Below, piece after piece: positions 4,197-22,190 of a stretch of DNA of 64,000 bases (position 1 is its first letter; the number at the start of each line of letters is the position of its first letter). The DNA comes from Azoarcus sp. L1K30 (GTDB lineage: Bacteria > Pseudomonadota > Gammaproteobacteria > Burkholderiales > Rhodocyclaceae). Where the stretch lies: assembly GCF_018122735.1 (NCBI RefSeq), contig NZ_JAGRRD010000001.1, positions 4,388,615 through 4,452,614 on the forward strand. Direction: 5' to 3'. The notes under the pieces were generated by a model. That model did no database searches, was not told where the DNA came from, and saw only the letters and a list, made by a program, of their open reading frames with translations. A program made the position numbers and the translations under genes.

Positions 4197-4772
4197 TCAG
4201 GCACTGAACAGTGCCTTCATGTCGAGATCCGCTTTTTCCGCGCTGGAAAACTCGAGCAAAGGCTGGGCGATGAACTGGAACAGGCGAGCAATCAAGAGGT
4301 CTGGAAACTGCTCGATACGCACGTTATGCACATTGACTGATTCGTTGTACAGCTCACGCCGGTCGGCGATGGCGTTTTCCAGCGCGGTGATGCGCGTCTG
4401 CAATTGCATGAAATGCTCATTGGCCTTGAGTTCAGGATAGGCTTCGGCAACGGCAAAAATCTGACCGAGTCCCATGCGCAGCATGCCTTCGGCCGCGCCG
4501 AGTGCGGCAATGTCGTGCTTTTCGCGCGCGCTCGATACCCGTGCCCGGGCTTCGGTGACGCGGGCGAGCGTTTCCTGCTCGAACTGCTTGTACTGGCGAC
4601 AGACTTCGACCAGTTTGGGCAGTTCATCATGGCGTTGCTTGAGCAGAACGTCGATGTTGGCCCATGCCTTTGCCACATTGTGCTTGAGTTGCACCAGTCC
4701 GTTATAGACAACGACGCCATAGAGGAGCGCGATGACGATGAAGCCGAAGAAAACTGCGGTAGTAACACTCAT
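4197..4772 (-). CDS. lemA: LemA family protein
   Basis: A 191-residue protein with an N-terminal membrane anchor (VFFGFIVIALLYGVVVYNGLV, about 7-27) followed by a helical cytoplasmic or periplasmic domain. The conserved family features are visible: NVAKAWANIDVLLKQRHDELPKLVE, FAVAEAYPELKANEHFMQLQ and the ELYNESVNVHNVRIEQFPD stretch near 150. A clear ribosome site, GGAGG, lies seven bases before ATG 4772, which rules out the much longer open frame. It is followed by the GIDE/EF-hand gene, forming a two-gene unit. The molecular function of LemA proteins is not established; they have been linked to membrane or envelope processes. Confidence 0.9.
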   Translation of the reverse strand: MSVTTAVFFGFIVIALLYGVVVYNGLVQLKHNVAKAWANIDVLLKQRHDELPKLVEVCRQYKQFEQETLARVTEARARVSSAREKHDIAALGAAEGMLRMGLGQIFAVAEAYPELKANEHFMQLQTRITALENAIADRRELYNESVNVHNVRIEQFPDLLIARLFQFIAQPLLEFSSAEKADLDMKALFSA

Positions 4773-4896
4773 GCACGGACCTCCACTGACTTGCAGGCGA
4801 TTGCTTCGATATCCGTCTATCGTACAACAGAGGGGGCGGCTGGACGCAAACGGCGCGTTCGACCTTGCATGAGTGACCGGCCGGGCGTATCGGGGC

Positions 4897-5754
4897 TCAG
4901 TCGGTCGCGGGCAGGAAACGGGCCAGGGCTTCGTCCGGCGCTCCCAGTCTGCGCAGCAGGGCTTCCGGCGACATGTGCAACAAATCGCTGATGGCTTCGA
5001 TGTCGTCGGGCAGCGCGGCATCTTCCCAGCCGTGTGCCACATGGCGAGTGAAGTCTGCGGCGAGCTTGATGGTGCGCACGCGCGGGTGGTCGCTGCGGCT
5101 TTCATCGAACAGGTGAACCAGCAGATCGGGCAGCTTCCAGGCCTGGATCAGCGCATACTGGATTTCACTCGCGGTGACGCCGAAGACCTGCCGTTGCGCG
5201 TCCGCGCTGCGCAAGGTGCGGTCCTGCTGCTGCAGGGCAAATACCTGCTGTGTGAGGTCGGGCGCGAATATCCAGCAGATGATGTCGGTCGCTTGTCGCA
5301 GCAGGGCGGCAACGGTGATTTCATCGACATCGAGGTCATGGCGAATGACGGCCCATTCGCGCGCATATTTCGCCGCCCTGCGCGCACGACCGATGACTTT
5401 GAGCACGCCGACGAGCGCTTTCGGATGTGCCGCAAGCGTTTCCTCTACGGTCGTCAGTTCTTTAAACGTCTCGAAAAACGGCGACAGGCCCATCATGATG
5501 ATCGCGCGATCAATGGTCGTGATGTCGTGGTTCTGTGACACGGGGCGATGGGTTTCGAGATAGGACAGCAATTTCATCGTCATCAGCGGGTCGCTTAGTA
5601 CGATGCTGGCGACGTGCTTGCTGCTGACCCTGTCGATCTCCTCGCGCATCGTCTCGAACTCCCGCATCGTGTGCCTTAGCACCGGGAGTTTCTGGCGCGA
5701 AAAGTAGTCGACATAGTCGGCGACTGTTGCGAGTGGGTGTGTTAGCAAGGCCAT
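4897..5754 (-). CDS. HDOD domain protein
   Basis: A 285-residue protein with an HDOD-type domain over most of its length: FETMREEIDRVSS, ASIVLSDPLMTMKLLSYLE, ITTIDRAIIMMGLSPFFETF and later AALLRQATDIICWIFAP. HDOD domains resemble HD phosphohydrolases but lack the metal ligands and usually work as signalling or scaffold modules. No second domain is attached. It is a single gene on its strand with its own candidate promoter and diverges from acuI. Specific role unknown. Confidence 0.8.
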   Translation of the reverse strand: MALLTHPLATVADYVDYFSRQKLPVLRHTMREFETMREEIDRVSSKHVASIVLSDPLMTMKLLSYLETHRPVSQNHDITTIDRAIIMMGLSPFFETFKELTTVEETLAAHPKALVGVLKVIGRARRAAKYAREWAVIRHDLDVDEITVAALLRQATDIICWIFAPDLTQQVFALQQQDRTLRSADAQRQVFGVTASEIQYALIQAWKLPDLLVHLFDESRSDHPRVRTIKLAADFTRHVAHGWEDAALPDDIEAISDLLHMSPEALLRRLGAPDEALARFLPATD

Positions 5755-8248: not shown

Positions 8249-10141
8249 ATGACGACGTACAAGGAATTTCACCGCAGATCGATTGAGGATCGTGACGGAT
8301 TCTGGGGTGAGCAGGCGCAGCTTGTGCACTGGAACAAGCCGGTCGAGCAGGTCTGCGACTTCTCCAGGCCACCATTCGTGAAGTGGTTCAAGGGAGGTGA
8401 GACCAACCTGTGTTACAACGCGGTTGATCGCCACGCGGCCAAGCGCCCGAACGATCGGGCGCTGGTCTACATTTCTACCGAGACCAATGAAGAGAAGGTC
8501 TACTCCTTCGCTGAACTTCAGCGTGAAGTCGAGCGCATGGCGGCGATCTATCTCGAGTTGGGGGTCAAGCGCGGCGACCGCGTGCTGATCTACATGCCGA
8601 TGATTGCCGAAGCGGCATTCGCGATGCTTGCCTGCGTCCGCATCGGTGCCATCCACTCGGTGGTGTTCGGCGGTTTTGCCGCGGGCTCGCTGGCCACGCG
8701 CATCGACGATGCCAAGCCGGTGCTGATGGTCAGCTCCGATGCCGGCATGCGCAATGGCAAGCCGGTGCCGTACAAGCATCTGGTCGACGAGGCCTGCAAA
8801 CTGGCCGAGTTTCCGCCGGCCAAGGTGCTGATCATCGATCGTGGACTGGACAAGGGCTTTCCCAAGGTCGCCGGGCGCGACGTCGATTACGCCGAACTGC
8901 GCGCCAGGCATATGGATGCGCAGGTGCCGGTGACCTGGCTGGAATCGTCCGAGCCGAGCTACATCCTGTACACCTCGGGGACCACCGGCAAACCCAAGGG
9001 CGTGCAGCGCGACACGGGCGGCTACACGGTGGCGCTGGCCGCGTCGATGAAGCATATCTTCACCGGGGGTGAGGGCGAGACCATGTTCTCGACCTCCGAC
9101 ATCGGTTGGGTGGTCGGCCACAGCTACATCGTCTATGGTCCGCTGATCGGCGGCATGGCAACCATCATGTACGAGGGCACGCCGCTGCGCCCGGATGCCG
9201 GCATCTGGTGGCAGATCGTCGAGAAGTACAAGGTCAGCGTAATGTTCTCCGCACCGACCGCCGTGCGCGTGCTGAAGAAGCAGGATCCGGCCTTCCTCAA
9301 GAAGTACGATCTGTCCTCGCTCAAGCACCTATTCCTGGCCGGTGAGCCGTTGGACGAGACTTCGCACCAGTGGATCATGGAAGAATTGGGCATCCCGGTC
9401 ATCGACAACTATTGGCAGACCGAGACCGGCTGGCCGATGCTGGCGGTGTGTCGTGGCGTCGAGGACAGCCCGATCAAGCTGGGGTCTCCGGCGTTCCCGG
9501 TGTACGGCTACGATCTGCGCATCTATCGCGAGGATGGTACCGAGTGCGGTGCCAACGAAAAGGGTATCGTCGGCATCGTGCCGCCATTGCCGCCGGGCTG
9601 CCTGTCCACAGTCTGGGGGCAGGACGAGCGCTTCGTGTCGACCTATTTCACGCTGTTCACCGATCCGGTGGTGTACTCGTCATCGGACTGGGGCATCAAG
9701 GATGAGAACGGCTACCACACCATTCTCGGACGCATGGACGATGTCATCAACGTCGCCGGCCACCGCCTTGGAACGCGCGAGATCGAGGAAGCCGTGCAAA
9801 CGCACCCGGCAATTGCCGAAGTGGCCGTGGTCGGGGTGCACGACGAGCTCAAGGGGCAGATGCCGATGGCGTTTGCAGTGGTGAAGGACGCGAGCACGGT
9901 CGATACTGCAGAGAAGCGTGCGGCGCTGGAGAAGGAGGTCATGAAGAAGGTGGACGAAAGTCTCGGGGCAATCGCGCGTCCGGGCCGTGTCCACTTCATC
10001 AATGGGTTGCCCAAGACCCGCTCGGGCAAGATGCTGAGGCGCTCGATCCAGGCGTTGGCCGAGGGGCGCGATGCGGGCGACCTGACCACGATCGACGATC
10101 CGAGCACACTCGACCAGATCAAGCAGGCACTGGGGCGCTGA
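8249..10141 (+). CDS. prpE: Propionate-CoA ligase (propionyl-CoA synthetase)
   Basis: A 630-residue acyl-CoA synthetase that converts propionate (and often acrylate) plus CoA and ATP into the acyl-CoA via an acyl-adenylate. Visible motifs are the ATP loop YTSGTTGKPKG near 241, DNYWQTETGWP near 385, GRMDDVINVAGHRLGTREIE near 495 and the catalytic lysine loop PKTRSGKMLRR close to the C-terminus. The N-terminus TTYKEFHRRSIEDRDGFW is the usual PrpE start. Two ATGs occur six bases apart; the second (8249) has better spacing to the AGGGAGAGG ribosome site. The other prp genes (prpB, prpC, prpD/acnD) are not here, so prpE stands alone under its own sigma-54 promoter and terminator. Confidence 0.93.
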   Translation: MTTYKEFHRRSIEDRDGFWGEQAQLVHWNKPVEQVCDFSRPPFVKWFKGGETNLCYNAVDRHAAKRPNDRALVYISTETNEEKVYSFAELQREVERMAAIYLELGVKRGDRVLIYMPMIAEAAFAMLACVRIGAIHSVVFGGFAAGSLATRIDDAKPVLMVSSDAGMRNGKPVPYKHLVDEACKLAEFPPAKVLIIDRGLDKGFPKVAGRDVDYAELRARHMDAQVPVTWLESSEPSYILYTSGTTGKPKGVQRDTGGYTVALAASMKHIFTGGEGETMFSTSDIGWVVGHSYIVYGPLIGGMATIMYEGTPLRPDAGIWWQIVEKYKVSVMFSAPTAVRVLKKQDPAFLKKYDLSSLKHLFLAGEPLDETSHQWIMEELGIPVIDNYWQTETGWPMLAVCRGVEDSPIKLGSPAFPVYGYDLRIYREDGTECGANEKGIVGIVPPLPPGCLSTVWGQDERFVSTYFTLFTDPVVYSSSDWGIKDENGYHTILGRMDDVINVAGHRLGTREIEEAVQTHPAIAEVAVVGVHDELKGQMPMAFAVVKDASTVDTAEKRAALEKEVMKKVDESLGAIARPGRVHFINGLPKTRSGKMLRRSIQALAEGRDAGDLTTIDDPSTLDQIKQALGR

Positions 10142-10169
10142 TACCGCGTCCGGAAGTCTGAGCAGGATT

Positions 10170-10198
10170 GCAAAGGCCCGCCGAGCGCGGGCCTTTGC
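10170..10198. terminator. Bidirectional hairpin terminator between prpE and the acyltransferase
   Basis: GCAAAGGCCCGC and GCGGGCCTTTGC form a perfect 12-bp stem around a five-base loop between two convergent genes. The A-rich and T-rich stem feet allow termination in both directions, although the T-run is short. Confidence 0.75.
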
Positions 10199-10240
10199 AT
10201 TGTTGACGATCCGCCCGCGTGTGGCAGGCGTAGCGAACGC

Positions 10241-11014
10241 TCACTTACCGGAGAGTTTGCCTCCGCCGGCCTCTTTCTCGAAGCCACGCTCGATCTCTTC
10301 CTGGATAACGCGCCAAATCGGCTTCACGATGAAACGCATCCCCTTGATGATGCTCGGTACATGCATCATCGACGGCACGCGGATGCCGCGGTGCTCCACC
10401 GGTCCGCCGATTTGCCGGATATCGACGCCGAGTTTGCCGAAGTGGGAGGCAAGGCGCGGTTCGGTCAGCACGAACAGGGTGTCGATGCCGCTGCGCGCAG
10501 CCAACGCAACGGCGCCCAAGTAGAGGCCGATCGGGATGTATGGAAAGCGAGGCCGGTCACCGGTGCCGAAGTCCTCTTCGCTGATGGCAACAGGCGCCCG
10601 CTCGTCACCCTTGCGTCGGCGATAGGCGGCACGAACGGCGAGTCTGGAAACCTCTGCGATGCTCTCCCGCGGAAGTTTGAGTGGATCGACGATCGAACGG
10701 TCGAGTGTATGGCCGCATGTTTGCTCGAATGGCAGGGGGGCGAGGGGATCGTCCGGATTGGCAAGGACCAGGCGCGTACAACCCACCAGATGGTTGGGTT
10801 CGTTCGCGGTGCGAATCAGGCAGTGCAGGCTGTGCGGGTCGTAGACATCGGTCTCGAGGCGGTCGGGACGCTCGGGTTCGAACTTGAGCTCTTCGCAGTA
10901 AACCTCGTGACGGATGCGGAAGACGTCATTGCGCAAGGCCGTATTCGTTGCTGGCGCAATCTCGAAATATTTGCGAAAGCCGTGACCGAGGTTGAAGCGT
11001 TCGAAGATCTGCAT
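10241..11014 (-). CDS. PEP-CTERM/exosortase system-associated acyltransferase
   Basis: A 257-residue LuxI/FeeM-like acyltransferase. Diagnostic stretches are FRIRHEVYCEELKFEP near 33 (the region equivalent to the autoinducer-synthase RHEVF motif), GCTRLVLANPDDP, the SIAEVSRLAVRAAYRRRKGD strand near 119 and YIPIGLYLGAVALAARSGID. This matches the family named for its co-occurrence with exosortase/PEP-CTERM genomes. Members are thought to transfer an acyl chain from acyl-ACP to an unknown amine acceptor. It lies 20 bases after two FtsX-type permeases on the same strand, and a PEP-CTERM protein is 4.7 kb away. No exosortase gene is in the window. Substrate and product are unknown. Confidence 0.85.
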   Translation of the reverse strand: MQIFERFNLGHGFRKYFEIAPATNTALRNDVFRIRHEVYCEELKFEPERPDRLETDVYDPHSLHCLIRTANEPNHLVGCTRLVLANPDDPLAPLPFEQTCGHTLDRSIVDPLKLPRESIAEVSRLAVRAAYRRRKGDERAPVAISEEDFGTGDRPRFPYIPIGLYLGAVALAARSGIDTLFVLTEPRLASHFGKLGVDIRQIGGPVEHRGIRVPSMMHVPSIIKGMRFIVKPIWRVIQEEIERGFEKEAGGGKLSGK

Positions 11015-11034
11015 GGTCCATTGGCCCGAAGAAA

Positions 11035-12255
11035 TTAATTGTTCTGCCTGAGCGCATCGACAACCGGCGTCGAGGACACCCTGCTTGCCGGGAAAATTGC
11101 GGCCAGGGCAGTTGCAGCCTGCCCGATCAGAAAGGCAAAGACAATAGTTGGTCCATCGATCCGGATGAATGCGGTGTAGCCCACGTTCGCATTCGGTGGT
11201 GGCGGCATCGGTATCCCGACCGCAGAAATTGCCAGCGCGAGTGCGACACCGATCAAAACGCCAGCGCTTGCGCCGATCAAGCCCAGAGAGGCGTTCTCGA
11301 TCAGCACCAGACCGAATACCTGTCTGCGCGTATTGCCCAGCGCCTGAAGTGTGCCGAATTCACCCAGACGTTCAAAGGCGCTCATGTTGACGGTATTCGC
11401 AACGGACAGCAGGACCATGAACAGGATGATCAATTGAAGGACGCCGAACTGCCGGTCGTAGAGTTGCAGCGTCTTGTCGTAGAAGTCGGATAGCTGGCGC
11501 CAGTTACGCGAGTCGAGGCCGGTTGGCAGGATACCGCTGATGGCGGCCTGGGCCGTCTCGGTATCCTCCGTGCGCTTCAGCGTCACGACCAGCAGATTTG
11601 CGCCGGGGGTCGACATCAATTCGCGCGCGGCGCCGAGAGGAATGCGCACGGCCCTGGCGTCAAAATCCTTGGAAAAGCTCTGGAACACCCCGACGATCTC
11701 GAAATCAAGCGTATTCAGCGCTCCGTCGGCCGTGTTCATGACCAGAATGACCGAGTCGCCGGGTTTGAGTCCCAGCGAATGCGCCACGCCTTGCCCGACG
11801 GTCATGCCGAAGGTATCGCTGTCGGTGATCTGACGTCCTTCGGTGATATTGAGATAGGTGCCGAGGCGCGCTTCCTTGTCTGGCTCCACTCCTTCGCCGA
11901 TGATCGCCAGGTCGCGCTTGCCATTGTTGAGCAAACCGGCAAAGTTCAAGCGCGAGGCGACTTCGGCAACGCCCGGTTGTTGGGCGATCCGCTGTGCGAC
12001 CGATTCCGGATTGTCGATCAGATAGCGGTCCGGTTGACGGGTGCCTTTTTCGAGGAAGTCTTTGCGGAATACCTGGATGTGGCCCGTTTGCGAGTGGATG
12101 ATGGCCTCACCCAGCTGGACAAAGATATCCTGAACGAAGCCGCCTGAAAGAATCAGGCCGGAAACGCCGAAGATGATTGCTGCGAGCGTCATCGCGGTCC
12201 GGATTTTCTGCCGGAAGATATTGCGCAGGGCGAGTTTGATCAGCATCGTGCTCAC
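11035..12255 (-). CDS. FtsX/MacB-type ABC transporter permease (second of pair)
   Basis: A 406-residue permease with an N-terminal membrane segment (about 16-42), a large periplasmic MacB-like domain (about 45-270) and three C-terminal membrane segments including QLIILFMVLLSVANTVNMS and the conserved IPMPPPPNANVGY loop. This is the architecture of lipoprotein-releasing or macrolide-export permeases (LolC/E, MacB type). The GTG start at 12255 overlaps the upstream permease stop (GTGA), so the two are translationally coupled. They probably form a heterodimer. No ATPase subunit is encoded nearby, so it must be supplied from elsewhere. The acyltransferase follows directly, hinting that the exported substrate may be an acylated molecule or lipoprotein. 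Confidence 0.85.
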   Translation of the reverse strand: MSTMLIKLALRNIFRQKIRTAMTLAAIIFGVSGLILSGGFVQDIFVQLGEAIIHSQTGHIQVFRKDFLEKGTRQPDRYLIDNPESVAQRIAQQPGVAEVASRLNFAGLLNNGKRDLAIIGEGVEPDKEARLGTYLNITEGRQITDSDTFGMTVGQGVAHSLGLKPGDSVILVMNTADGALNTLDFEIVGVFQSFSKDFDARAVRIPLGAARELMSTPGANLLVVTLKRTEDTETAQAAISGILPTGLDSRNWRQLSDFYDKTLQLYDRQFGVLQLIILFMVLLSVANTVNMSAFERLGEFGTLQALGNTRRQVFGLVLIENASLGLIGASAGVLIGVALALAISAVGIPMPPPPNANVGYTAFIRIDGPTIVFAFLIGQAATALAAIFPASRVSSTPVVDALRQNN

Positions 12256-13493
12256 CGCTGGTGACGCAGCGCGTCAACGATAATCATGCGTGAGGCCTTC
12301 CACGCGGGGAACAGGCTGGCAACCAGCGTGGTGACGAAGGCAAGCAGAAAGGCATCGAGCATGAGGGCTGGAGAAATGTTGATGCCAGCGATGTAGCCAC
12401 GCATCATCCCGGGAGGTGGCGGCATGGGAATGCCAAGCGCGGAGATGACTGCGCCGAGCAGATAGCCGAGTGCAACGCCGATGATGCCCCCGACTATCCC
12501 GAGAAGCCCGCCTTCCACGATGAACAGTCCAAGAATACCGCGCCTGCGAACGCCAATCGCCATTGAGGTTCCGATTTCGCCGGTCCGCTCGATCACCGAC
12601 ATCGACAGGGTGTTGGAAATGCTCAGGATGACAATGAGCGCAATCAGCAGGCGTACGACACCGATCTGTTTCGAGAAGAGTTCGACAGTCTTGTTATAGA
12701 AATCGGCGAGCGCAGACCACGGAATCACCTCGAATTCGTCTGCGGACAATTTCCGGCGCAATTCGGACACGACTGCGTCGGTGGATTCGGTCCTGTCGAG
12801 CAGCACGACCCAGCTTGTTGCGCCCTCAACCTTCATCAGCTTGCGGGCGATGTCGATTGGCGCCCGAAGCACCGAGTCGTCGTATGCCTTGGTGATCGTT
12901 GCAAAGATCCCGGCGACGGTCAGTTCGACTGCGTTGACACCGCCCGACGCCGTCGTGGCCAGCAGCACGACCCTGTCCCCGGGTACGGCCCCGAGACTTG
13001 CGGCCAATCCTTCGCCGAGCATGACAGAGTCGGGGGCCGCGCCGACCAGATCGCGGCCGGCAATGACCGTAATTGCACGTGCGATCGACGCTTCCTTGCC
13101 GGGATCGATGCCTTCACCAAGAAACGATACGGTTGCGTCCCCCTTGCTGAGCAGGCCGCTGAACGTGAGCCGTGGGCTCACCGTGCGGATGCTTGTCCCG
13201 ACCGCCTCCTGAACGGCCGAGGTGTCACCGGGCAGCAAGTATGCGTAGGGGTCACCGAGACCCTTTTCGAAAAAGCCTGGCCGGGTGATCTGGATGTGCC
13301 CCAACTGCGAGTGAATCGTTGATTCCCGCATGTCCTGGAAGATCCAGTGAATGAAGCCGCCCGCCAGCAAGAAGGCAATTACGCCCCCACAGATCGTTGC
13401 CAGCGCCAGCAGTGCCCTGCGACGCTGACGCAGCAGATTGCGTGCGGCGAGCGTGACGGTGTAAGCAGCGGCGCGGAGGATGGCTTGCCTCAT
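12252..13493 (-). CDS. FtsX/MacB-type ABC transporter permease (first of pair)
   Basis: A 413-residue permease paralogous to its downstream neighbour: an N-terminal membrane segment (ALLALATICGGVIAFLLAGGF, near 30), a periplasmic domain with FLGEGIDPGKEASIARA, and C-terminal membrane segments beginning VVRLLIALIVILSISNTLS, with the same GIPMPPPPGMMRGYIAGIN loop. It is the first gene of a three-gene unit (permease, permease, acyltransferase). It diverges from the thiF gene across 69 bases, where ATGATA can be read as TATGAT on one strand and TATCAT on the other (13522-13528), possible overlapping -10 boxes. No ABC ATPase is visible nearby. Confidence 0.85.
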   Translation of the reverse strand: MRQAILRAAAYTVTLAARNLLRQRRRALLALATICGGVIAFLLAGGFIHWIFQDMRESTIHSQLGHIQITRPGFFEKGLGDPYAYLLPGDTSAVQEAVGTSIRTVSPRLTFSGLLSKGDATVSFLGEGIDPGKEASIARAITVIAGRDLVGAAPDSVMLGEGLAASLGAVPGDRVVLLATTASGGVNAVELTVAGIFATITKAYDDSVLRAPIDIARKLMKVEGATSWVVLLDRTESTDAVVSELRRKLSADEFEVIPWSALADFYNKTVELFSKQIGVVRLLIALIVILSISNTLSMSVIERTGEIGTSMAIGVRRRGILGLFIVEGGLLGIVGGIIGVALGYLLGAVISALGIPMPPPPGMMRGYIAGINISPALMLDAFLLAFVTTLVASLFPAWKASRMIIVDALRHQR

Positions 13494-13562
13494 CGGGTTT
13501 CGTGTATTTGACGGTGTTCTCTATGATAGCGTCTGAGTGACCGTTAATCGAAGGAGTCGGGA

Positions 13563-14441
13563 ATGAAAGCAGGGTTTGATTATGATTCTGCGTTCTCGCG
13601 CAACATTGGATGGGTCACTTCGGAAGAACAGTGCTCACTGCGGGGCAAGCGGGTCGCGATTGCAGGACTGGGTGGTGTGGGAGGGGTTCATATGCTCACA
13701 CTGGCGCGCCTGGGCATCGGGGCTTTCAATGTTTCCGATTTCGATTCGTTCGATTGGGTGAATTTCAATCGCCAGGCAGGCGCCGTCGTATCCACGCTTG
13801 GCAGGCCGAAGGTGGACGTGCTGGCCGAAATGGCGTTTGAGGTCAATCCGGAACTGGATGTCCGGAAATTTCCGGAAGGCATTTCCGCTGTCAATGTCGA
13901 CGACTTCCTAAAAAATGTCGATGTCTATGTTGACGGGCTTGACTTCTTCGCGTTCGAGGCCAGGCGGGTTGTGTTCGCGGCCTGTCATCGCCTGGGGATC
14001 CCCGCCGTGACTGCTGCGCCGCTGGGGATGGGCACGGCAGTGCTGGTCTTTCTCCCCGGGCAGATGTCTTTTGAAGAGTATTTCTGCCTCGAGGGGTGCG
14101 ATGAAGAGGAAATGGCGATCCGGTTCCTGCTCGGGCTATCGCCGGCCATGCTTCAGCGCAGCTATGTCGCCGACCCCTCACGGGTGAATCTTGCCGAACA
14201 TCGCGGCCCTTCGACCATTGCCGCATGTCAATTGTGTGCGGGCGTGACCGCTACCGAGGTGCTGAAAATTTTACTGGGGCGCGGTGCCGTGCGCGCTGCG
14301 CCGCGTGGATATCATTTCGATGCCTACCGATCTCGTTTCGTGCATACATGGCGACCCGGCGGAAACCGGAACCCGCTGCAGCGTATCGGGTTATGGATCG
14401 CGCGGCGCCAGCTCGGGAAGATGAAGCGAGGTGAGGGATGA
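13563..14441 (+). CDS. ThiF/MoeB-type E1-like adenylyltransferase
   Basis: A 292-residue E1-like enzyme. The nucleotide fold has GLGGVGG at 35-41 and SDFDSFDWVNFNRQ at about 58-71, where the aspartates, N and RQ match the ATP-binding signature of ThiF, MoeB and ubiquitin E1. Four cysteines, C175/C179 and C222/C225, are placed like the zinc-binding cysteines of MoeB, though the first pair is spaced CxxxC. Such enzymes adenylate the C-terminus of a small protein or peptide. No ThiS/MoaD-like carrier is adjacent. A strong AAGGAG ribosome site precedes ATG 13563. Its stop overlaps the nitroreductase start (ATGA), so the two act as a unit; ThiF plus nitroreductase pairs are familiar from azole-type peptide biosynthesis, but no YcaO gene is here. 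Confidence 0.85.
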   Translation: MKAGFDYDSAFSRNIGWVTSEEQCSLRGKRVAIAGLGGVGGVHMLTLARLGIGAFNVSDFDSFDWVNFNRQAGAVVSTLGRPKVDVLAEMAFEVNPELDVRKFPEGISAVNVDDFLKNVDVYVDGLDFFAFEARRVVFAACHRLGIPAVTAAPLGMGTAVLVFLPGQMSFEEYFCLEGCDEEEMAIRFLLGLSPAMLQRSYVADPSRVNLAEHRGPSTIAACQLCAGVTATEVLKILLGRGAVRAAPRGYHFDAYRSRFVHTWRPGGNRNPLQRIGLWIARRQLGKMKRGEG

Positions 14442-15514
14442 TCGACGATGCCTGCTTCATGCGACTGGCGCATGCCGCGATGTGGGCTCCGACCGCGGAG
14501 AACCGTCATTTCGTGAGATTGCGACTGGATCGCGACGGTGTTGACAGCAGGATCCTGGTCATGCCGACATCCGCGCTGTTGTCGGAAGACGCCGGGCGCA
14601 TGCCTTTGCACAGTCTGGGCGTCGGGGCGCTGGTCGAGAATGTCGTGCTCCGGGCACGTGCGGAAGGTTGGCGATCACGGGTCGGGTGGTGTGACGCTGT
14701 GACGCCTGGCGAACCGTTGGCTCGCATCGAGCTGGTGGCGGCAAGTGAAGAGGTGCCGTCGCAGGTGTCGGTTCTGCATCCTTGCATCGAACGGCGCGTG
14801 ACCAACCGTGCCGTAGTCATGGCGGGTCCGGCGCTTGATCCGGCGCAGCGCACGCGTTTCGACGCGCTTTCGCATGATCTGGATGGTGTAAGCCTGGGGT
14901 GGATACCTGGCGGTGGTGCGGCGCGCCGGTCATTCCTACGCATGGCCTATGCGGCCGAGAGCGCTCGATTCGCTAATCGGGGTTTGCACCATGAGATGTT
15001 CTCCGGCATTCGTTGGAATCTCGGCTGGTCGATGTCTTCAGAAGAGGGGCTGCCGCCGGGAGCCCTTGGCATCGAGTGGATCGCCAGGCCGGGATTCAGC
15101 TTGTTGCGCCATTGGCCGTTGGCGAAGGCGCTGTCACTTGTCGGAGGGCATCGATTGGTCGGACTTCGCGCTGCGTTGATCCCGTTGCTTTTGAGCGCAG
15201 ACGTGATGGTGATTTCAAGCGAGCGCAATGGAATCCCGGCCTGGTTGGACGCGGGGCGGGCGATGCAGAGGGCGTGGCTGTTGGCGACGTCGATGCAGCG
15301 TGCGGTGCAGCCGGTGGCCGCCGTCGCGCTGTATGCGAATCCGGCGTTTCCGAATGTCGGCCCGCGTTTGCGCGACCAATTGCAGTCCGGGTGGCGGGGG
15401 CTTATCGGGGATGCCTTGCCGATGATGTGCTTGCGTATGGGGATCGCGCCCGCCCCCTCGGTACGTGCGGGGAGAGGGCTCCCGCGGGACCTCGTCGTAC
15501 AAGAGTTGACTTGA
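14438..15514 (+). CDS. Nitroreductase-like FMN oxidoreductase (Acg-type)
   Basis: A 358-residue protein. Its start, RLAHAAMWAPTAENRHFVRLRL (about 9-30), is the nitroreductase signature in which the AP-x-x-x-N region binds FMN; a second half (TNRAVVMAGPALDP, then SADVMVISSER and QRAWLLATSMQRAVQPVAAV near 275-305) supplies the other FMN-contacting part. The length and spread of the motifs resemble the larger Acg-like nitroreductase homologues more than NfsA/NfsB. It is translationally coupled to the E1-like gene. Likely role: redox step on the product or substrate of that enzyme. Substrate unknown; assignment to an exact subfamily is uncertain. Confidence 0.65.
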   Translation: MIDDACFMRLAHAAMWAPTAENRHFVRLRLDRDGVDSRILVMPTSALLSEDAGRMPLHSLGVGALVENVVLRARAEGWRSRVGWCDAVTPGEPLARIELVAASEEVPSQVSVLHPCIERRVTNRAVVMAGPALDPAQRTRFDALSHDLDGVSLGWIPGGGAARRSFLRMAYAAESARFANRGLHHEMFSGIRWNLGWSMSSEEGLPPGALGIEWIARPGFSLLRHWPLAKALSLVGGHRLVGLRAALIPLLLSADVMVISSERNGIPAWLDAGRAMQRAWLLATSMQRAVQPVAAVALYANPAFPNVGPRLRDQLQSGWRGLIGDALPMMCLRMGIAPAPSVRAGRGLPRDLVVQELT

Positions 15515-15688
15515 GCCGTCGCTGATGTGGTCGGCCCGCTCGTGCCATCGCCGGATGGGCGCTGACGAGTGGCCAGTCCTGTTGCGCGATTTGATTCAGA
15601 TCCGGGAGTGTCGATTTTCTTTACAGTTGCACCGGATCGCCATGGGTTGTTTTGTGTATAGCCTTGATTTTGAATGATAAAAAATATC

Positions 15689-15704
15689 TGGCCCGGCTAT
15701 TGCT
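15689..15704 (+). promoter_or_regulatory. Sigma-54 (-24/-12) promoter of the PEP-CTERM gene
   Basis: TGGCCCG-GCTA-TTGCT has the invariant GG and GC ten bases apart and matches the sigma-54 consensus well. The predicted start is near 15714, giving a leader of about 60 bases. PepA-type genes in Zoogloea are known to depend on RpoN and the PrsK/PrsR system. The 174 bases upstream (15515-15688) could carry enhancer sites, but I recognise no clear inverted repeat there. Confidence 0.82.
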
Positions 15705-15776
15705 TATATGCTGGCAAGTCGCAACCAACCGCAATGCAACTTCAACCGCGCGACCAATTGATAAGGGGTAACACTC

Positions 15777-16634
15777 ATGAAAACTCTCAAGGCACGCACT
15801 CTTGCCGTTGCACTGGCCTCCGCACTTTCGATGGGCGTGGCCTCGCAGGCAGCGGCCGCTCCGGCTTTCACCATCGACCTGTCCGCGGTCATCGGCGGCG
15901 CTCCCCAACTCTTCTCGGGTGATTTCTTCTCGGGTACGTCGACCGAGCTGCTCACCTCTGTTGGCAATACGCACACCGGTTCGGGCTGGATGCAGCTGTC
16001 CGGTCTGTCGTCCGGTGCGGTGACTCAGGTTCCGTTCGGCACGAATGCCTTCAGCCCGTTTAACATGTATGTCACGTTCGACTTGGAGGACGTGCTGACC
16101 TCCGGTGCGATGAATGCGCCCGGTAGCACCTACAGCCTGACCAAGCTCGACTTCGTGCTGTGGGCCGATGCTGACAAGGCCACGACCTTCACCAACGCCA
16201 ATGCCGCGACCAATACCGCTGCAACGGTGGCCAATAATGGCAATGATGTCGTTCTTGGCTTCGGTTCGCTGATCGCAGGTACGGCTGGCCTGAGCGGACT
16301 TGGTGGTGCTTTCCTGAACTCCATCAACGTCTTCGGCGTGTGTACCGGTGCCGGTACTGCAGCAATCGGTGGCACGGCAGTGGCCAGCCCGCTGTGTGCC
16401 AGCGACATGGGCAAGAAGTTCTTCGTGCAGCCGGACCCGTTCTACGATCTGGCCTTCACCGAGTTCAACAACACCGCGCAGGGCTACACCGTCAATGGCA
16501 ACCTGTTGTCGATCAACTCGGCTTCGGGTGGTGTGGATTTCAACAAGGTGCCTGAGCCCGGCCTGCTGTCGCTGATGGGTATCGGCCTGCTGGCTGGCTT
16601 CATGGCCAAGCGCAAGGCTTCGAAAGCTGCTTGA
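15777..16634 (+). CDS. pepA: Flocculation-associated PEP-CTERM protein PepA
   Basis: A 285-residue exported protein. A Sec signal peptide covers about residues 1-28 (MKTLKARTLAVALASALSMG, then AAA before PAFTIDLS). The C-terminus is a complete PEP-CTERM sorting signal: V-PEP at 259-261, a hydrophobic helix LLSLMGIGLLAGFMA and a basic end KRKASK. The body is Ser/Thr/Asn/Ala-rich and cysteine-poor, consistent with a surface or matrix protein cleaved by an exosortase. THTGSGWMQLSGLS near 63 and the N-terminus match the PepA group needed for floc formation in Zoogloea and Thauera. ATG 15777 follows AAGGGG. It is monocistronic, with a sigma-54 promoter and a strong terminator. The exosortase must lie elsewhere. 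Confidence 0.88.
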   Translation: MKTLKARTLAVALASALSMGVASQAAAAPAFTIDLSAVIGGAPQLFSGDFFSGTSTELLTSVGNTHTGSGWMQLSGLSSGAVTQVPFGTNAFSPFNMYVTFDLEDVLTSGAMNAPGSTYSLTKLDFVLWADADKATTFTNANAATNTAATVANNGNDVVLGFGSLIAGTAGLSGLGGAFLNSINVFGVCTGAGTAAIGGTAVASPLCASDMGKKFFVQPDPFYDLAFTEFNNTAQGYTVNGNLLSINSASGGVDFNKVPEPGLLSLMGIGLLAGFMAKRKASKAA

Positions 16635-16643
16635 TTGCACTGA

Positions 16644-16668
16644 CAGGCACTCGTGATTCGAGTGCCTG
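16644..16668 (+). terminator. First hairpin after pepA
   Basis: CAGGCACTCG and CGAGTGCCTG form a perfect 10-bp stem with a five-base loop, ten bases after the pepA stop. It has no T-run and may protect the 3' end or assist the terminator that follows. Confidence 0.55.
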
Positions 16669-16675
16669 GTGTTTG

Positions 16676-16710
16676 AAAAGGCCGGGGTAATTCCCGGCCT
16701 TTTCGTTTTT
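16676..16710 (+). terminator. Rho-independent terminator of pepA
   Basis: AAAAGGCCGGG and CCCGGCCTTTT form an 11-bp stem around a six-base loop, followed by CGTTTTT. The A-rich left foot would let it also stop transcripts of the convergent reductase gene. Confidence 0.85.
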
Positions 16711-16804
16711 CGTGGCGCCGATGTAGAGCGTCTGCGATGGCCGGTACTTTTGATGGGGGGCGTGTCATGGCGAAAGGAGCCTGCGCAGCGCGCGGGTGTG
16801 TCCC

Positions 16805-17935
16805 TCAGTCCGAAGCATGCGGGTAGCGCATTGTCAGATAGTGCCGAATCGCGGCAGTGACGTGTTCTACGACCGTTTGATTCGTATCTCTGCGTACGTT
16901 CGGTTCGTGCTGCGTCGCCGCGAAGCCCTGGCTTCCTGCGAGGTAATCCAGGTAGATCGGTAGCGTCATCACCGCTTTTCGATGGCGCGGCGAGATGAAA
17001 GGGGCGGCGACCCGAGGCAGCATGGAGAAGATCTTCCGCGGCAGGGTGATTGCGCGCGGAATGGTCAGGCCGTGGCGACGGTAGGTGGTTCGAACAAGCG
17101 CTTTCAACTCATTCAGTCGCGGCGAGTGTTCGGGGCCTGTGCATAGGTGCATGACCGTACCGGTGGTGGACGGGTCCCGGCTTGCAGCGATGATGGTATT
17201 CGCTACCCGATCGACCGGTATCACGTCCAGCCGGGTGTCGCCGAAATCCGGATAGAGCCCGAGCGTCCTGCGGCCGGATAGAAACTCGCAGATGAAGTAG
17301 AAGATCTGGAAATGGATGATGCGTCCGTCGATTGAATTGCCGATGACCATGCTTGGGCGATGAACGGTGATGGGCAGCAACTCGGTTTCGATTGCCTTGC
17401 GCACCATGATTTCGGCTTCTGCCTTCGATTGTTCGTAAGTGTTGTGAAACTCACGTGGTTCGTCAATCCAGGTTTCGGGCAGGATGCCGGGCCGTTTTCC
17501 GCCCACGCCGACTGTGCTGATGAATTCGACCTTGCGCAGCGCACCGGCCCTGTTGAGTGCGCGGGCAAGTGAAAGAATGGCGGCGGTCGAGTCGAGAGCG
17601 GACCTGCGTGCTTCATCAAGTGGCTTGTTCATGTGCACGCTGGCCGCACAGTGAATGACATGCTGTGTCGTGGCGCTCAGTTGTGCATAAGCGGCCTCGG
17701 AGAGCCCGAACTGTGGAGCGCTTGCATCGCCGCGCATGGCTTCGATGCGCAGGCGTGCCGGCGAATCCGGTCGCAGACGCCAGAATTGGTGGAGTTCGGC
17801 CATCCTTTGCGCGAGATGGTCGTCCGAGTCGGCACGCAGCAACAGACGCAGACGGACCGCTGGATCGGTCAATAACGCGGGGACGATGGCGCTGCCCACG
17901 GCGCCGGAGGCGCCGGTAATAAAGTAGACGCTCAT
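16805..17935 (-). CDS. Fatty-acyl / thioester reductase-like SDR
   Basis: A 376-residue extended short-chain dehydrogenase of the NAD-binding-4 (male-sterility / thioester reductase) type. The dinucleotide fold is TGASGAVGSAIVPALL at 7-22, the catalytic pair is in YEQSKAEAE near 167 and substrate-binding landmarks are VIHCAASVHMNKPL near 93 and VHRPSMVIGNSIDGRI near 187. Such enzymes reduce acyl-CoA, acyl-ACP or carrier-bound thioesters to aldehydes or alcohols with NADPH. It lies nine bases after an acyl-activating ligase on the same strand, so ligase then reductase would turn a free fatty acid into an aldehyde or alcohol. No carrier-protein domain is fused. Exact substrate unknown. Confidence 0.75.
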   Translation of the reverse strand: MSVYFITGASGAVGSAIVPALLTDPAVRLRLLLRADSDDHLAQRMAELHQFWRLRPDSPARLRIEAMRGDASAPQFGLSEAAYAQLSATTQHVIHCAASVHMNKPLDEARRSALDSTAAILSLARALNRAGALRKVEFISTVGVGGKRPGILPETWIDEPREFHNTYEQSKAEAEIMVRKAIETELLPITVHRPSMVIGNSIDGRIIHFQIFYFICEFLSGRRTLGLYPDFGDTRLDVIPVDRVANTIIAASRDPSTTGTVMHLCTGPEHSPRLNELKALVRTTYRRHGLTIPRAITLPRKIFSMLPRVAAPFISPRHRKAVMTLPIYLDYLAGSQGFAATQHEPNVRRDTNQTVVEHVTAAIRHYLTMRYPHASD

Positions 17936-17944
17936 GGTGCTCGT

Positions 17945-19711
17945 TCAAGGGTCGACAACGATGGTGGGCCGATTTGATTGCCTGCTGTGACAGGCGATCC
18001 GGTAAGCGGACTCGATCTGGGCGGCGAAGCGGGCTTCGATGGCCGGTCGCCGCAGCTTCAGGTTTGCGGTCAACTCGCCGCTGGCGACGCTGAACGGGTG
18101 CGTGGTGACCAATAACACCCCTGGCCGCTGAAAATCCGGAAAGCGTGCGCTGTTCGCGACGGCGTCCTGTCGAATCTGACTCATCGCGTCAGCGGTGCCG
18201 AGTCGACCGGCAATCGGGTGCTGCGGAGAAATTACGAGCAGTGCCAAGGGGAAGGGGCGGCCCTGCCCGACGACAATCGCGTGTTCGACATAGGAGAGCT
18301 TTTTCAGTTCGGCCTCGATTGGAGACGGCGCCACGCGACGGCCGGTGGATGTCTTGAAGACCTCGCTCTTCCGGCCTTCAAGCCAGACAAATCCGTCCTC
18401 GTCAATGCGTGCGTAGTCGCCTGTATGCAGGTGGCCGCATTCGTCGTGGCCGCTATCTGTCGGCGAAGCTTTTGCATACTGCAGGGATACGCCGGGTCCC
18501 CGGACCAGAAGCTCATGGTCCTCCGCGATCACGAGTTCATTTCCTGGCAGCGGCCGCCCGACGCTGCCGAAGCGGTACGCGTCGGGGGTGTTGATCGCAA
18601 TGGGAATGACGTTCTCGCTTACGCCATATGCCTCCAGTACCAGCCAGCCGAGCCCGTGGAATCGCTCCATCAACCAGAGCGGGAGCGGGGCCGAGCCGCT
18701 TGCCATGAACTGCAGGTCGGGCCCCATCAGCGCGCGCAGTGGCGAGAGTATGCGCCTGGCAACGGGCGCCAGCAGTCTGTCGGGAAGGCTAGCACCGTGG
18801 CCGGCGCGTTGCGCCGAGGCGATGCGTTGTCCGACATTCCAGGCCGCATTGGCGACTGCCCTGACGGGAAGGGGCTTGCGATCGAGTTCGGCCATGATGC
18901 CGGCATGTAGCTTTTCGAAGAACCGTGGCACACCGACGAACAAGGTTGGCCTGATTTCGGGCAGCAGGCGCATGAGCTGCTCCGGTCTATCAACGAAGAA
19001 CGTGGATGCGCCGCAACTCAGGGCAAACACGTTGAGAATGCGCTGGAAGAGGTTGGAGAGCGGGAGCCAGCAAACGAATCGTGCTTCATGCCGAATGCTC
19101 GTGAAGTGGGTTGCAAGGGCGTCGCAGGCGAGCAGGATCTGGCGGTGGGAATACGCAATGCCCTTGGGTTTGCCCGTGCTGCCGGAGGTGAATACGATCG
19201 TCGCGGTATCGTCGGGACTGGGAAGCGGAGGCGCGGGGCGCGGGGGCGATCCGCTGCGGAGCAATGACGAAAGGGTCAGAACGCCCGGTTTTGGTTCGCC
19301 TTCGGCAACAATCCGGATCTCGGGTGGCTGACAGTGTGCGGACAGTGCGTCGAGTGTCCCAATGTCGGCCGCGATCACCGCTCGAGGGGTGGTGGTCGCC
19401 AGAACATGGTGCAGGTTTCCGGGGGCGTCGTGGACGTCGAGTCCGACCGCAATGGCTCCGCACGCCAGGGCGGCCAGATGGCAATAGTCCCAGTTGGGCG
19501 ACGTTGGTAGCATAATGGCAACCCGGTCGCCTGTCTTCAGCCCCAGCTCGCCGAATGCCGCCGCGAGCGTAGCCACGGTCTTCGCGACATCCTTCCAGCG
19601 AGTTTCCTGCCACGATCCGCTTGTGTCCCGAAACAGGTAGCCGACTGCCTCAGGGGTGTCCTGAGCGCGAGCGGACAGTCTTTCCGGCAAGGTCTGAGGG
19701 GCAATGGTCAT
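17945..19711 (-). CDS. Long-chain acyl-CoA (or acyl-ACP) ligase, AMP-forming
   Basis: A 588-residue adenylate-forming enzyme of the long-chain fatty acid ligase type: DDTATIVFTSGSTGKPKGIAY ATP loop near 177, FMASGSAPLPLWLMERFHGLG near 340, EAYGVSENVIPIAINTP near 363, and HTGDYARIDEDGFVWLEGRK near 448. The GYLF-x-D...SW start resembles ligases of the AMP-binding LC_FACS bacterial group. Its partner nine bases downstream is an acyl reductase. The open frame extends ten codons upstream from a TTG, but MTIAPQTLPERLSARAQ is the natural start. On the minus strand TATACT stands exactly six bases before this ATG and no ribosome site is visible, so the mRNA may be leaderless. Confidence 0.82.
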   Translation of the reverse strand: MTIAPQTLPERLSARAQDTPEAVGYLFRDTSGSWQETRWKDVAKTVATLAAAFGELGLKTGDRVAIMLPTSPNWDYCHLAALACGAIAVGLDVHDAPGNLHHVLATTTPRAVIAADIGTLDALSAHCQPPEIRIVAEGEPKPGVLTLSSLLRSGSPPRPAPPLPSPDDTATIVFTSGSTGKPKGIAYSHRQILLACDALATHFTSIRHEARFVCWLPLSNLFQRILNVFALSCGASTFFVDRPEQLMRLLPEIRPTLFVGVPRFFEKLHAGIMAELDRKPLPVRAVANAAWNVGQRIASAQRAGHGASLPDRLLAPVARRILSPLRALMGPDLQFMASGSAPLPLWLMERFHGLGWLVLEAYGVSENVIPIAINTPDAYRFGSVGRPLPGNELVIAEDHELLVRGPGVSLQYAKASPTDSGHDECGHLHTGDYARIDEDGFVWLEGRKSEVFKTSTGRRVAPSPIEAELKKLSYVEHAIVVGQGRPFPLALLVISPQHPIAGRLGTADAMSQIRQDAVANSARFPDFQRPGVLLVTTHPFSVASGELTANLKLRRPAIEARFAAQIESAYRIACHSRQSNRPTIVVDP

Positions 19712-19717
19712 CGCATA

Positions 19718-19723
19718 AGTATA
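19718..19723 (-). promoter_or_regulatory. Candidate -10 box placing +1 at the ligase ATG
   Basis: TATACT on the minus strand (five of six matches) is separated from the ATG by six bases, which would start the transcript at or within one base of the ATG. No convincing -35 is seen. Confidence 0.35.
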
Positions 19724-19745
19724 TGGGCATGACCGCCTCAACGGA

Positions 19746-20894
19746 TCAGGTGCGCGGTGGGACCTTCACGGGCGACGTAGTGCGGCCGACCATGTTATTG
19801 CGATGAATCAATTCGGGCTCGTCGATATAGCCGAGCAAATGTTCGATCTCGGAAGTCGGTTTGCGCGCAATTCGCCTGCATTCCGCCGCACTGTAATTCA
19901 CCAGTCCGCGCGCAACCTCCTCGCCGGTCACACTGCGGCAGGCCACGGCTGCACCGCGCTTGAAGTCACCTCTGACCTCGATCAGTCCTACTGGCAGCAA
20001 ACTGCGTCCGCTGCGTAGCGCAGTGACGGCGCCGTCGTCGATCACCAGGTCGCCGGCCAGCTGCAGGTGGTCGGCCAGCCATTGCTTGCGCGCCTGCAGC
20101 GGTGTGCTGCTGGCGTAGAGCAGGGTGCCGACCGGCTCGCCGGCGGCAATTCTCAACAGTGGGTCGGTCTCTCTGCCACTGGCAATGCAGGTGTGGGCGC
20201 CGCTGCGTGCGGCGCGCTGGGCTGCGCGGATCTTGGTGATCATTCCCCCCTTGCTGATGCCGGTGCCGGCACCTCCGGCCATGGCCTCGTACGCCAAATC
20301 CTCCGCCTGTCCTTCGGCAATCAGGGTCGCGGCGGGATCCTTGCGCGGGTCGGCGGTGAACAGGCCGCTTTGGTCGGTCAGGATGATCAGGGCCTCCGAT
20401 TCGATGAGGTTGGCCACCAGTGCGCCGAGCGTGTCGTTGTCACCGAACTTGATCTCTTCCGTCACGACGGTGTCGTTCTCGTTGATGATCGGAATGACGC
20501 CGAGTTCGAGCAGCGTGACGAGTGTCGAGCGCGCATTCAGGTAGCGGGTGCGATCGGCAAGGTCGGCGTGGGTCAGCAGAATCTGTGCCGTGTGCAGGCC
20601 ATGACGGGAGAAGGCCTTCTCGTAGGCTTCGACCAGCCCCATCTGACCCACCGCGGCGGCGGCCTGCAGTTTGTGCATTTCATGTGGACGTCTGGTCCAG
20701 CCCAGGCGCTGCATGCCCGCGGCAATCGCGCCGGACGAGACGAGGGCGACTTCACGCCCCTGGCGGCGCAATGCCGCGATCTGACGCGCCCAGTCATCGA
20801 GTGCGGCGTGGTCTAGGCCGCTGCCGTTATTGGTCACGAGGGCGCTGCCGACCTTGACGACAAGTCGACGCGCAGTCCGGATCTTTTCTCTCAT
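19746..20894 (-). CDS. proB: Glutamate 5-kinase
   Basis: A 382-residue enzyme for the first step of proline synthesis, ATP-dependent phosphorylation of glutamate. The amino-acid kinase domain (about 1-260) shows [13 protein letters not shown] at 12-24, [11 protein letters not shown] near 52, [10 protein letters not shown] near 134 and [14 protein letters not shown] near 149, and the [10 protein letters not shown] lysine region near 215. A PUA domain follows (about 280-370). It lies 24 bases after obgE on the same strand, a common betaproteobacterial order. Confidence 0.95.
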
Positions 20895-20918
20895 GTGTTC
20901 GACTGCCTGGATGCAGTG

Positions 20919-22190
<1,272 letters not shown>

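Follow-up and report, generated by a model that had tools for sequence, protein, structure and literature searches.

A gene block in a 64-kb stretch of the 4.98-Mb genome of Azoarcus sp. L1K30 (contig 1, 4388615-4452614; the whole stretch is hereafter the window) encodes an exosortase-associated acyltransferase (AT), two Lol-like permeases, a ThiF/E1-like protein, an Acg-type flavin oxidase, a PepA-type PEP-CTERM protein, a reductase and a ligase (Table 1). With modest confidence, this island is read as making and exporting an oxazolone lipid or an N-acyl (dehydro)amino acid that is coupled to the PEP-CTERM surface protein. The class of pathway, in which an N-acyl amino acid is made and then cyclised or desaturated, is quite probable judging from the sequence, and a functional link of some kind to the PEP-CTERM protein is rather likely. 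The original prediction, which had named the same eight genes, is partly supported in its interpretation. Frame and hidden Markov model (HMM) scans recover all eight as intact open frames at the positions claimed, and the divergent operons that it described are present, with the AT and permeases on the minus strand and the ThiF-oxidase pair on the plus strand, 69 bp apart.

Enzyme set and predicted pathway

The families to which the three central enzymes belong indicate a known type of chemistry. TIGR03694, whose cut-off the AT clearly exceeds, is the exosortase-associated acyltransferase family, which is related to LuxI and FeeM and was named after its link with exosortase. The AT also passes the FeeM model (30.4 bits, cut-off 27) and is under the cut-off of Autoind_synth (20.2), and the PDB matches of its profile are acyl-homoserine-lactone synthases. 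A profile of the ThiF protein built from 17 relatives has TcdA as its best PDB match and also finds ThiF and MoeB. The glycines of the ATP loop (G35-G41) and D127 are invariant in the 17 sequences. D127, for which TcdA has an Asp at the aligned position, may, by analogy, be equivalent to D217 of TrzS.

The oxidase scores narrowly under the nitroreductase Pfam cut-off (22.6 vs 23.5) and under the cut-offs of the Acg (Rv3131)-type and Rv1355c-type models (E 9e-25 and 2e-24, respectively), and its profile matches the Acg structure 2ymv at 9.1e-18. The best PDB fold for its predicted model (pLDDT 87.9) is again 2ymv (E 2.1e-14, TM-score 0.69/0.74), and the protein, as modelled, belongs to the Acg group, in which it is divergent. 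It shares approximately 18-26% of its residues with the oxidases that fill this slot in relatives and 35-37% (BLAST) with proteins from locus L075, Nitrotoga sp. BS, Thiobacillus and Sedimenticola (L075, L141, L155 and L163) that are encoded a few kb from ThiF. From these sequences, two oxidase types seem to swap at one position.

In the Tyz/Oxz/Trz and NasY sets, these three enzyme types are likewise encoded next to one another, and the published pathways of this enzyme set yield acyl-oxazolones or N-acyl dehydrotyrosines (PMC10404671, PMC12856293, PMC12479983). The oxazolones are labile, and cold butanol-methanol gave the best extraction of them in PMC12856293. Additionally, the NCBIfam model PRK14852 covers all three parts, with a FeeM protein aligning to 79-212, the window ThiF to 312-588 and the oxidase to 619-795. 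A triple fusion scoring above the PRK14852 cut-off is absent from all 398 sampled genomes of the phylum, where the 15 matches to the model all leave the FeeM region uncovered, so the model itself is the only source of the argument from fusion. FeeM domains in open frames of 443-454 amino acids (aa), longer than most of those among the matches listed, are present at G000:C1:3962528, G111:C19:546649 and G111:C13:112210.

The peptide-type adenylation and generic redox originally proposed for the E1-like enzyme and the nitroreductase give way to a putative carboxylate-activating cyclase and a putative desaturating flavin oxidase, respectively. Peptide-type adenylation is not favoured because the ThiF relatives are encoded next to a synthase and an oxidase; no carrier or nonribosomal peptide synthetase domain was found in the ten window proteins scanned.

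From the gene families, the predicted oxidase fold, the conserved neighbourhood, and the exosortase and other transporter parts present in the genome, we infer the reactions, the transported compound, the joint working of the split transporter parts and any influence on flocs. The TIGR03694 enzyme would N-acylate an amino acid with a fatty acyl chain, after which the ThiF-like protein, with ATP, would activate the carboxylate and close an oxazolone ring. The Acg-type oxidase would add an alpha-beta double bond, a step that may precede or follow ring closure, and the end product would be an oxazolone or a ring-opened N-acyl dehydroamino acid. The two window permeases, together with a LolD-like ATPase encoded approximately 95 kb away, may extract this lipid from the inner membrane; a LolA-like protein may then ferry it, and a DUF1302 protein may hand it over to or through the outer membrane. 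PepA, processed by exosortase, would encounter the lipid at the surface. The ligase and reductase probably supply or reduce the acyl chain.

Co-location in related genomes

Co-location in other genomes, proposed originally as a check, was examined in 150 genomes from 92 genera of the order and in a set of named loci, and the gene families keep company in both. Among the 150 genomes, 22 are positive for AT, 29 for PRK08223-type ThiF, 32 for FeeM (>90 bits) and 57 for exosortase. FeeM at this score is present in 27 of the 29 genomes with ThiF and in 5 of the 121 without it (P 1.7e-22, a value that is too small because the genomes are related). The two ThiF genomes that lack FeeM (G103 and G049) have TIGR03694 within 5 kb of ThiF, so that either AT or FeeM is found in all 29 genomes with ThiF, compared with 10 of the 121 without it. 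Exosortase exceeds its cut-off in 28 of the 29 ThiF genomes (one of the 28, G135, by a weak partial match; G013 is the exception) and in all 22 AT genomes.

The association extends to gene positions. AT or FeeM is no more than 10 kb from ThiF in 26 of 29 cases, 18 of them within 400 bp, compared with 0.31 expected under random placement and rounded genome sizes, the assumptions behind all of the expected counts given here. The three ThiF genes without a nearby synthase are in G111, G092 and G128, the last on a contig of just 3.7 kb. AT is near ThiF in 6 of 25 cases (0.08 expected). Among the matches listed, ThiF is within 5 kb of a full-length PepA in at least 16 of 29 cases (0.07 expected). 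The full-length PepA matches number at least 28, of which 14 exceed the cut-off and 7 of those lie within 5 kb of ThiF; these matches were selected by hand, and weaker ones may be missing.

The named loci are the best 80 of at least 550 ThiF matches and are therefore biased to close relatives; three pairs share long exact DNA (L056/L179, L065/L152 and L142/L143), and the HMMs used to scan the loci were built partly from them. The nearest named ThiF relatives among the matches listed are from Thauera and Pseudothauera (Zoogloeaceae), Parazoarcus and Zoogloea. Forty-four of the 80 loci extend at least 8 kb to each side of ThiF, and within this distance an oxidase is found in 40, AT or FeeM in 30 and one or more Lol-like permeases in 21, of which 19 have two. 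DUF1302, LolD-like, LolA-like and PepA-like genes (the last by a profile at 100 bits) are each found in 9.

The order seen in the window, AT-permease-permease opposite ThiF-oxidase, recurs in Thauera (L108, L110, L122, L123), Pseudothauera (L109), Denitromonas (L125, L135), a Zoogloeaceae bacterium (L116) and five metagenome-assembled genomes (MAGs; L115, L118, L124, L138, L153). The whole set, including the reductase and ligase, is present in Thauera sp. Sel9 (L110), and transporter, synthase, ThiF, oxidase and PepA-like genes lie in one stretch in a Rhodocyclales MAG (L119), Nitrosomonas sp. HPC101 (L133) and Accumulibacter sp. 66-26 (L136).

PEP-CTERM tails are concentrated close to ThiF. 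A motif scan of the 41 loci that extend 9.5 kb in each direction, in which the inner and outer flanks are roughly equal, found 35 PEP-CTERM genes within 4.5 kb of ThiF, distributed over 32 loci, and 3 at 4.5-9.5 kb. Many of these neighbours are not PepA-like. Nine loci (L112, L117, L128-L130, L132, L144, L167 and L183) lack a PEP-CTERM gene within 4.5 kb; among the Zoogloea loci with full flanks, 1 of 4 has such a gene (L127) and L112, L128 and L130 have none.

Other neighbours vary. A UbiE-like methyltransferase lies next to another PEP-CTERM-like gene in L070, L062, L061, L140 and L166 (families c33 and c34, one member of each annotated), and an EryCIII-like glycosyltransferase is found in L063, L058, L164 and others (c17, one member annotated). 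On sequence grounds, these variable neighbours look like tailoring genes. In Janthinobacterium, Rugamonas and Duganella (L149, L157, L164, L168, L169, L173, L177, L178, L182), the ThiF-oxidase pair is accompanied by a PEP-CTERM gene, and AT or FeeM was not found even by a lenient search.

The putative exporter

Both window permeases are nearest to LolC/E and yet far under the TIGR02212 cut-off of 362.45, and a canonical LolCDE is ruled out by their scores of 90.5 and 101.5. No ATPase gene lies alongside them in the window block. AT/ThiF loci of other genomes also carry a LolA-like protein (PF17131), a LolD-like ATPase and a DUF1302 protein, and in the present genome the best LolA-like match (175.9 bits) and a LolD-like ATPase are found together at 4496608-4498183, approximately 95 kb from the block. 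This distant ATPase is 67% identical to a clustered one, compared with 47% for the next best. The second locus as a whole (G000:C1:4496608-4511566; L105, L106) contains LolA-like, LolD-like, DUF1302 and FeeM genes, extracellular polymeric substance (EPS) export genes and, farther along, an exosortase, a gene content which suggests that it complements the window permeases. The export function originally proposed fits the resemblance of the permeases to part of a Lol-like exporter, with the qualification that the remaining parts are distant.

In a scan of 124 loci, some of which overlap, Lol-like permeases are present in 49 and an MMPL protein with DUF1302 in 5 others, and the two types are never found together. 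The MMPL and DUF1302 genes replace the Lol-like permeases near ThiF in L057, L064, L068, L074 and L163, and 4 of these 5 loci have a second LolA-like protein. On balance, these sequence relationships lean towards export of the acyl product by the Lol-like machine.

PepA and its control elements

The tail of PepA fits the PEP-CTERM pattern (PF07589, 22.8 bits vs 20.7; VPEP...KRK), and its predicted model is of low confidence (pLDDT 39.6). An exosortase is encoded in the same genome at G000:C1:4510817-4511566 (PF09721, 230.8 bits). The pepA gene stands as a separate unit on the plus strand, downstream of the ThiF-oxidase pair.

The sigma-54-like element upstream of pepA is the sole site in the 64 kb, on either strand, that differs from the 16-base consensus TGGCACGNNNNTTGCT by no more than one base. 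For the shorter consensus TGGCACNNNNNTTGC, it is among several one-mismatch sites, with perfect ones at 7491 and 50596, and at two or three mismatches the frequency of the motif over the window is about that of shuffled sequence. When genes from several genomes were tested for a site with 10 or more of 12 positions matched, located from -300 to +90 relative to the frame start, 16 of 19 PepA genes (two of which are near duplicates) had one, compared with 105 of 3000 random stretches. In the same test, a site was present in 3 of 66 AT, 5 of 92 permease, 1 of 106 ThiF, 1 of 93 oxidase and 10 of 47 FeeM genes. The FeeM count is above random, and those elements may belong to a neighbouring gene. 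In Aquincola, pepA is RpoN1-dependent (PMC9850573), and the window pepA is probably under separate control.

Among 9 terminator-like matches in total (shuffle mean 8.6), the hairpin after pepA has a 14-pair stem followed by a T-run; shorter ones are no commoner than in shuffles. No sigma-70-like promoter was found in 10100-20900 (2.8 expected), and no tRNA or RNA family over its gathering score was found in the window.

Table 1. Features of the gene block and their positions in the window.
Feature	Position	Strand	Evidence
N-acyl amino acid synthase-like acyltransferase (AT)	10241..11014	-	TIGR03694, 268.9 bits vs cut-off 111.95
Lol-like FtsX/MacB permease 1	11035..12255	-	MacB_PCD + FtsX; TIGR02212 lolCE 1.1e-25, 90.5 bits
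Lol-like FtsX/MacB permease 2	12252..13493	-	FtsX + MacB_PCD; TIGR02212 4.7e-29, 101.5 bits
ThiF/E1-like protein, predicted oxazolone-forming cyclase	13563..14441	+	PRK08223, 475 vs 266, 7.1e-143
Acg-type flavin mononucleotide (FMN) oxidase, nitroreductase superfamily, predicted desaturase	14438..15514	+	Acg/Rv1355c-type models and 2ymv fold
Sigma-54 (-24/-12)-like element	15689..15704	+	About 70 bp upstream of pepA
PepA-type PEP-CTERM protein	15777..16634	+	NF033554, 141.3 bits vs cut-off 80
Terminator-like hairpin after pepA	16674..16705	+	14-pair stem then T-run
Thioester/fatty acyl reductase (NAD_binding_4), accessory	16805..17935	-	Pfam, 163.6 bits, 6.5e-48
AMP-forming fatty acyl ligase, accessory	17945..19741	-	AMP-binding, 199.8 bits, 8.2e-59

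Alternative explanations

Several observations weigh against the proposed synthesis and export of a lipid coupled to PepA. For three compound families made by the same enzyme set, thalassotalic acids, kyonggic acids and stieleriacines, no oxazolone has been observed (PMC12479983), so the pathway may end in something other than the ring. No AT or FeeM is found within the scanned distance in 14 of the 44 loci, 12 of them from Oxalobacteraceae, and a lenient synthase search of the same 14 loci and L186 also found none, with positive controls. In G013, which has ThiF and no exosortase, FeeM, ThiF and oxidase are adjacent and the 20-kb locus contains no PepA or exporter match, so the enzyme core can exist without exosortase, PepA and exporter. 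The exporter parts are divided between two loci in this genome, and what they carry is guesswork. Lol-like permeases occur without ThiF in five AT loci, which makes the acyl product a more likely cargo, as we infer, than a product that only ThiF can form. Finally, a single regulon is unsupported, because the sigma-54-like element in front of pepA is absent from most ThiF, oxidase and AT genes.

That separate element, the similarity of the AT to LuxI-type synthases and the reported change of biofilm species composition by stieleriacines (PMC7293339) would be consistent with an acyl product that acts as a diffusible signal or surfactant, its genes lying next to those of the PEP-CTERM/exosortase system through a shared biofilm or EPS life, with no physical interaction. 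This is unlikely, since the tight and recurrent adjacency of ThiF and PEP-CTERM genes exceeds what a shared lifestyle requires, and no receptor gene is recognised among the eight genes of the window. The adjacency itself (32 of 41 loci; 35 genes near vs 3 in the outer flank) could instead point to a physical anchor, in which the product is a lipid joined to the exosortase-cut PEP-CTERM protein, or an oxazolone that acylates it, and the Lol-like machine moves the lipidated protein outward. The similarity of the exporter to a lipoprotein-sorting machine would agree with such an anchor, as would the exosortase frame longer than 480 aa, a proxy for the exosortase A type, in 35 of 39 synthase-bearing genomes. 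However, 10 of the 45 genomes with such a frame have neither AT over its cut-off nor FeeM above 90 bits, so the product is not a general anchor, and, by general chemistry, a sortase-type transfer would need a free amine, which an N-acyl amino acid offers only where the amino acid itself supplies one. An anchor of this kind is improbable, and there is similarly little to recommend the Lol-like exporter, LolA-like protein and DUF1302 protein as a dedicated surface route for lipidated PEP-CTERM proteins.

The block might also be an accidental meeting of independent units, namely synthase-transporter, ThiF-oxidase, PepA and a proB-linked ligase-reductase. Several separate units do lie on both strands, subsets are found without the others (for example L060, L083 and L087), and the ligase-reductase pair follows proB here, and unannotated open reading frames of proB- and obg-like length come after it in L110. 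Against this, co-location is approximately 60- to 230-fold over random for the ThiF, PepA and reductase pairs, in varied arrangements and several families, which makes accident a very doubtful explanation. The placement and flank counts tell against it for the synthase, ThiF, oxidase and PEP-CTERM gene. The reading of the island as the source and exporter of a lipid coupled to the PEP-CTERM protein is retained.

Ligase, reductase and other features of the window

The ligase and reductase are the least constant part of the set. Reductase orthologues (E < 1e-80; next best 1e-22) are present in 5 of the 150 genomes, and all 5 are near AT or PepA, compared with 0.05 expected. Within 8 kb of ThiF, the pair is found in 1 of the 44 named loci. 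Reductase relatives in L087, L088 and L107 are accompanied by a gene of one sequence cluster, the L087 member of which has a WbuX match below cut-off. None of the specific family models is reached: the ligase scores 231 bits with FadD11 (cut-off 950) and 94.1 with the exosortase A-system acyl ligase TIGR03098 (592.35), and the reductase scores 140.1 with the thioester reductase TIGR01746 (213.35). An in-frame ATG puts the likely start of the ligase at 19711, as in the original prediction. The order obg, proB, ligase and reductase runs along one strand (window 16805-22169, minus), and the spacing makes it possible that obg and proB are co-transcribed with the pair.

The ligase and reductase are treated as a rare, accessory addition. 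The idea that all of the genes make one molecule is supported for the synthase, ThiF and the FMN enzyme, which fit one known pathway, and loses force for the ligase and reductase, which occur in a minority of genomes. The place of the pair in the set is likewise weak, as it lies directly after proB here.

In the remainder of the block, the AT and permease 1 are separated by 20 bp, and permeases 1 and 2, like ThiF and the oxidase, overlap by 4 bp. The left flank, prpE and a gene for a GGDEF protein, is excluded from the island. A MamQ-like match at window 4197-5105 (minus strand; 70.5 bits, under the cut-off of 250) overlaps another reading frame.

Comparison with known systems

The gene linkage described here joins three strands that are usually separate, namely acyl-oxazolone and N-acyl dehydroamino acid lipids, the PEP-CTERM/exosortase system and floc formation in wastewater bacteria, and it makes the question testable in culturable Thauera or Denitromonas. 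To our knowledge, the attachment of PEP-CTERM proteins to the surface is unresolved. The enzyme chemistry and a PEP-CTERM gene in one Stieleria cluster are already known, and the link between synthase and exosortase is already in print (Craig, Cherry and Brady 2011, as cited in PMC11072679 and PMC7293339). In the open-access literature, with most subscription journals outside the scope of the search, no report was found of a broad association of ThiF/oxidase with PEP-CTERM genes or of a Lol-like or MMPL exporter.

TyzA/TyzB/TyzC, TrzA/TrzS (Mycobacterium) and OxzA/OxzB (Pseudoalteromonas) resemble the window in bringing together an N-acyltransferase, a ThiF cyclase and an Acg-type flavin oxidase, and 2ymv, the best fold for the window oxidase, is also the nearest homologue used for the flavin oxidase in PMC12856293. 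Unlike in Tyz, Trz and Oxz, the window acyltransferase belongs to TIGR03694, and the block adds a PEP-CTERM gene and Lol-like permeases. The stieleriacine, thalassotalic acid and kyonggic acid clusters (NasY, ThiF, nitroreductase) share these three enzyme types, and the Stieleria maiorica cluster is described as including a PEP-CTERM gene (PMC7293339), as in the window. In the accessible text of PMC12479983 (2025), 'pep-cterm' occurs zero times and a Lol-like exporter is not mentioned, whereas the window block has a PEP-CTERM gene and Lol-like permeases.

PepA is needed for floc formation in Aquincola (PMC9850573), which is the evidence on flocs; the tie between the product and floc formation in the original prediction stays hypothetical, with a floc role here suggested by analogy. 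The Aquincola protein is a PEP-CTERM protein with a sigma-54 promoter (PMC9850573); the window protein exceeds the cut-off of NF033554, the flocculation-associated PepA family, and its gene has a similar element. In Aquincola, pepA is upstream of prsT (PMC9850573), and in the window it comes after the ThiF-oxidase pair. As in LolCDE/LolA sorting, the genome encodes two FtsX-type permeases, a LolD-like ATPase and a LolA-like protein, but unlike in LolCDE, the permeases are far under the lolCE cut-off and a DUF1302 protein is in their company, so that the permease system at most works like Lol.

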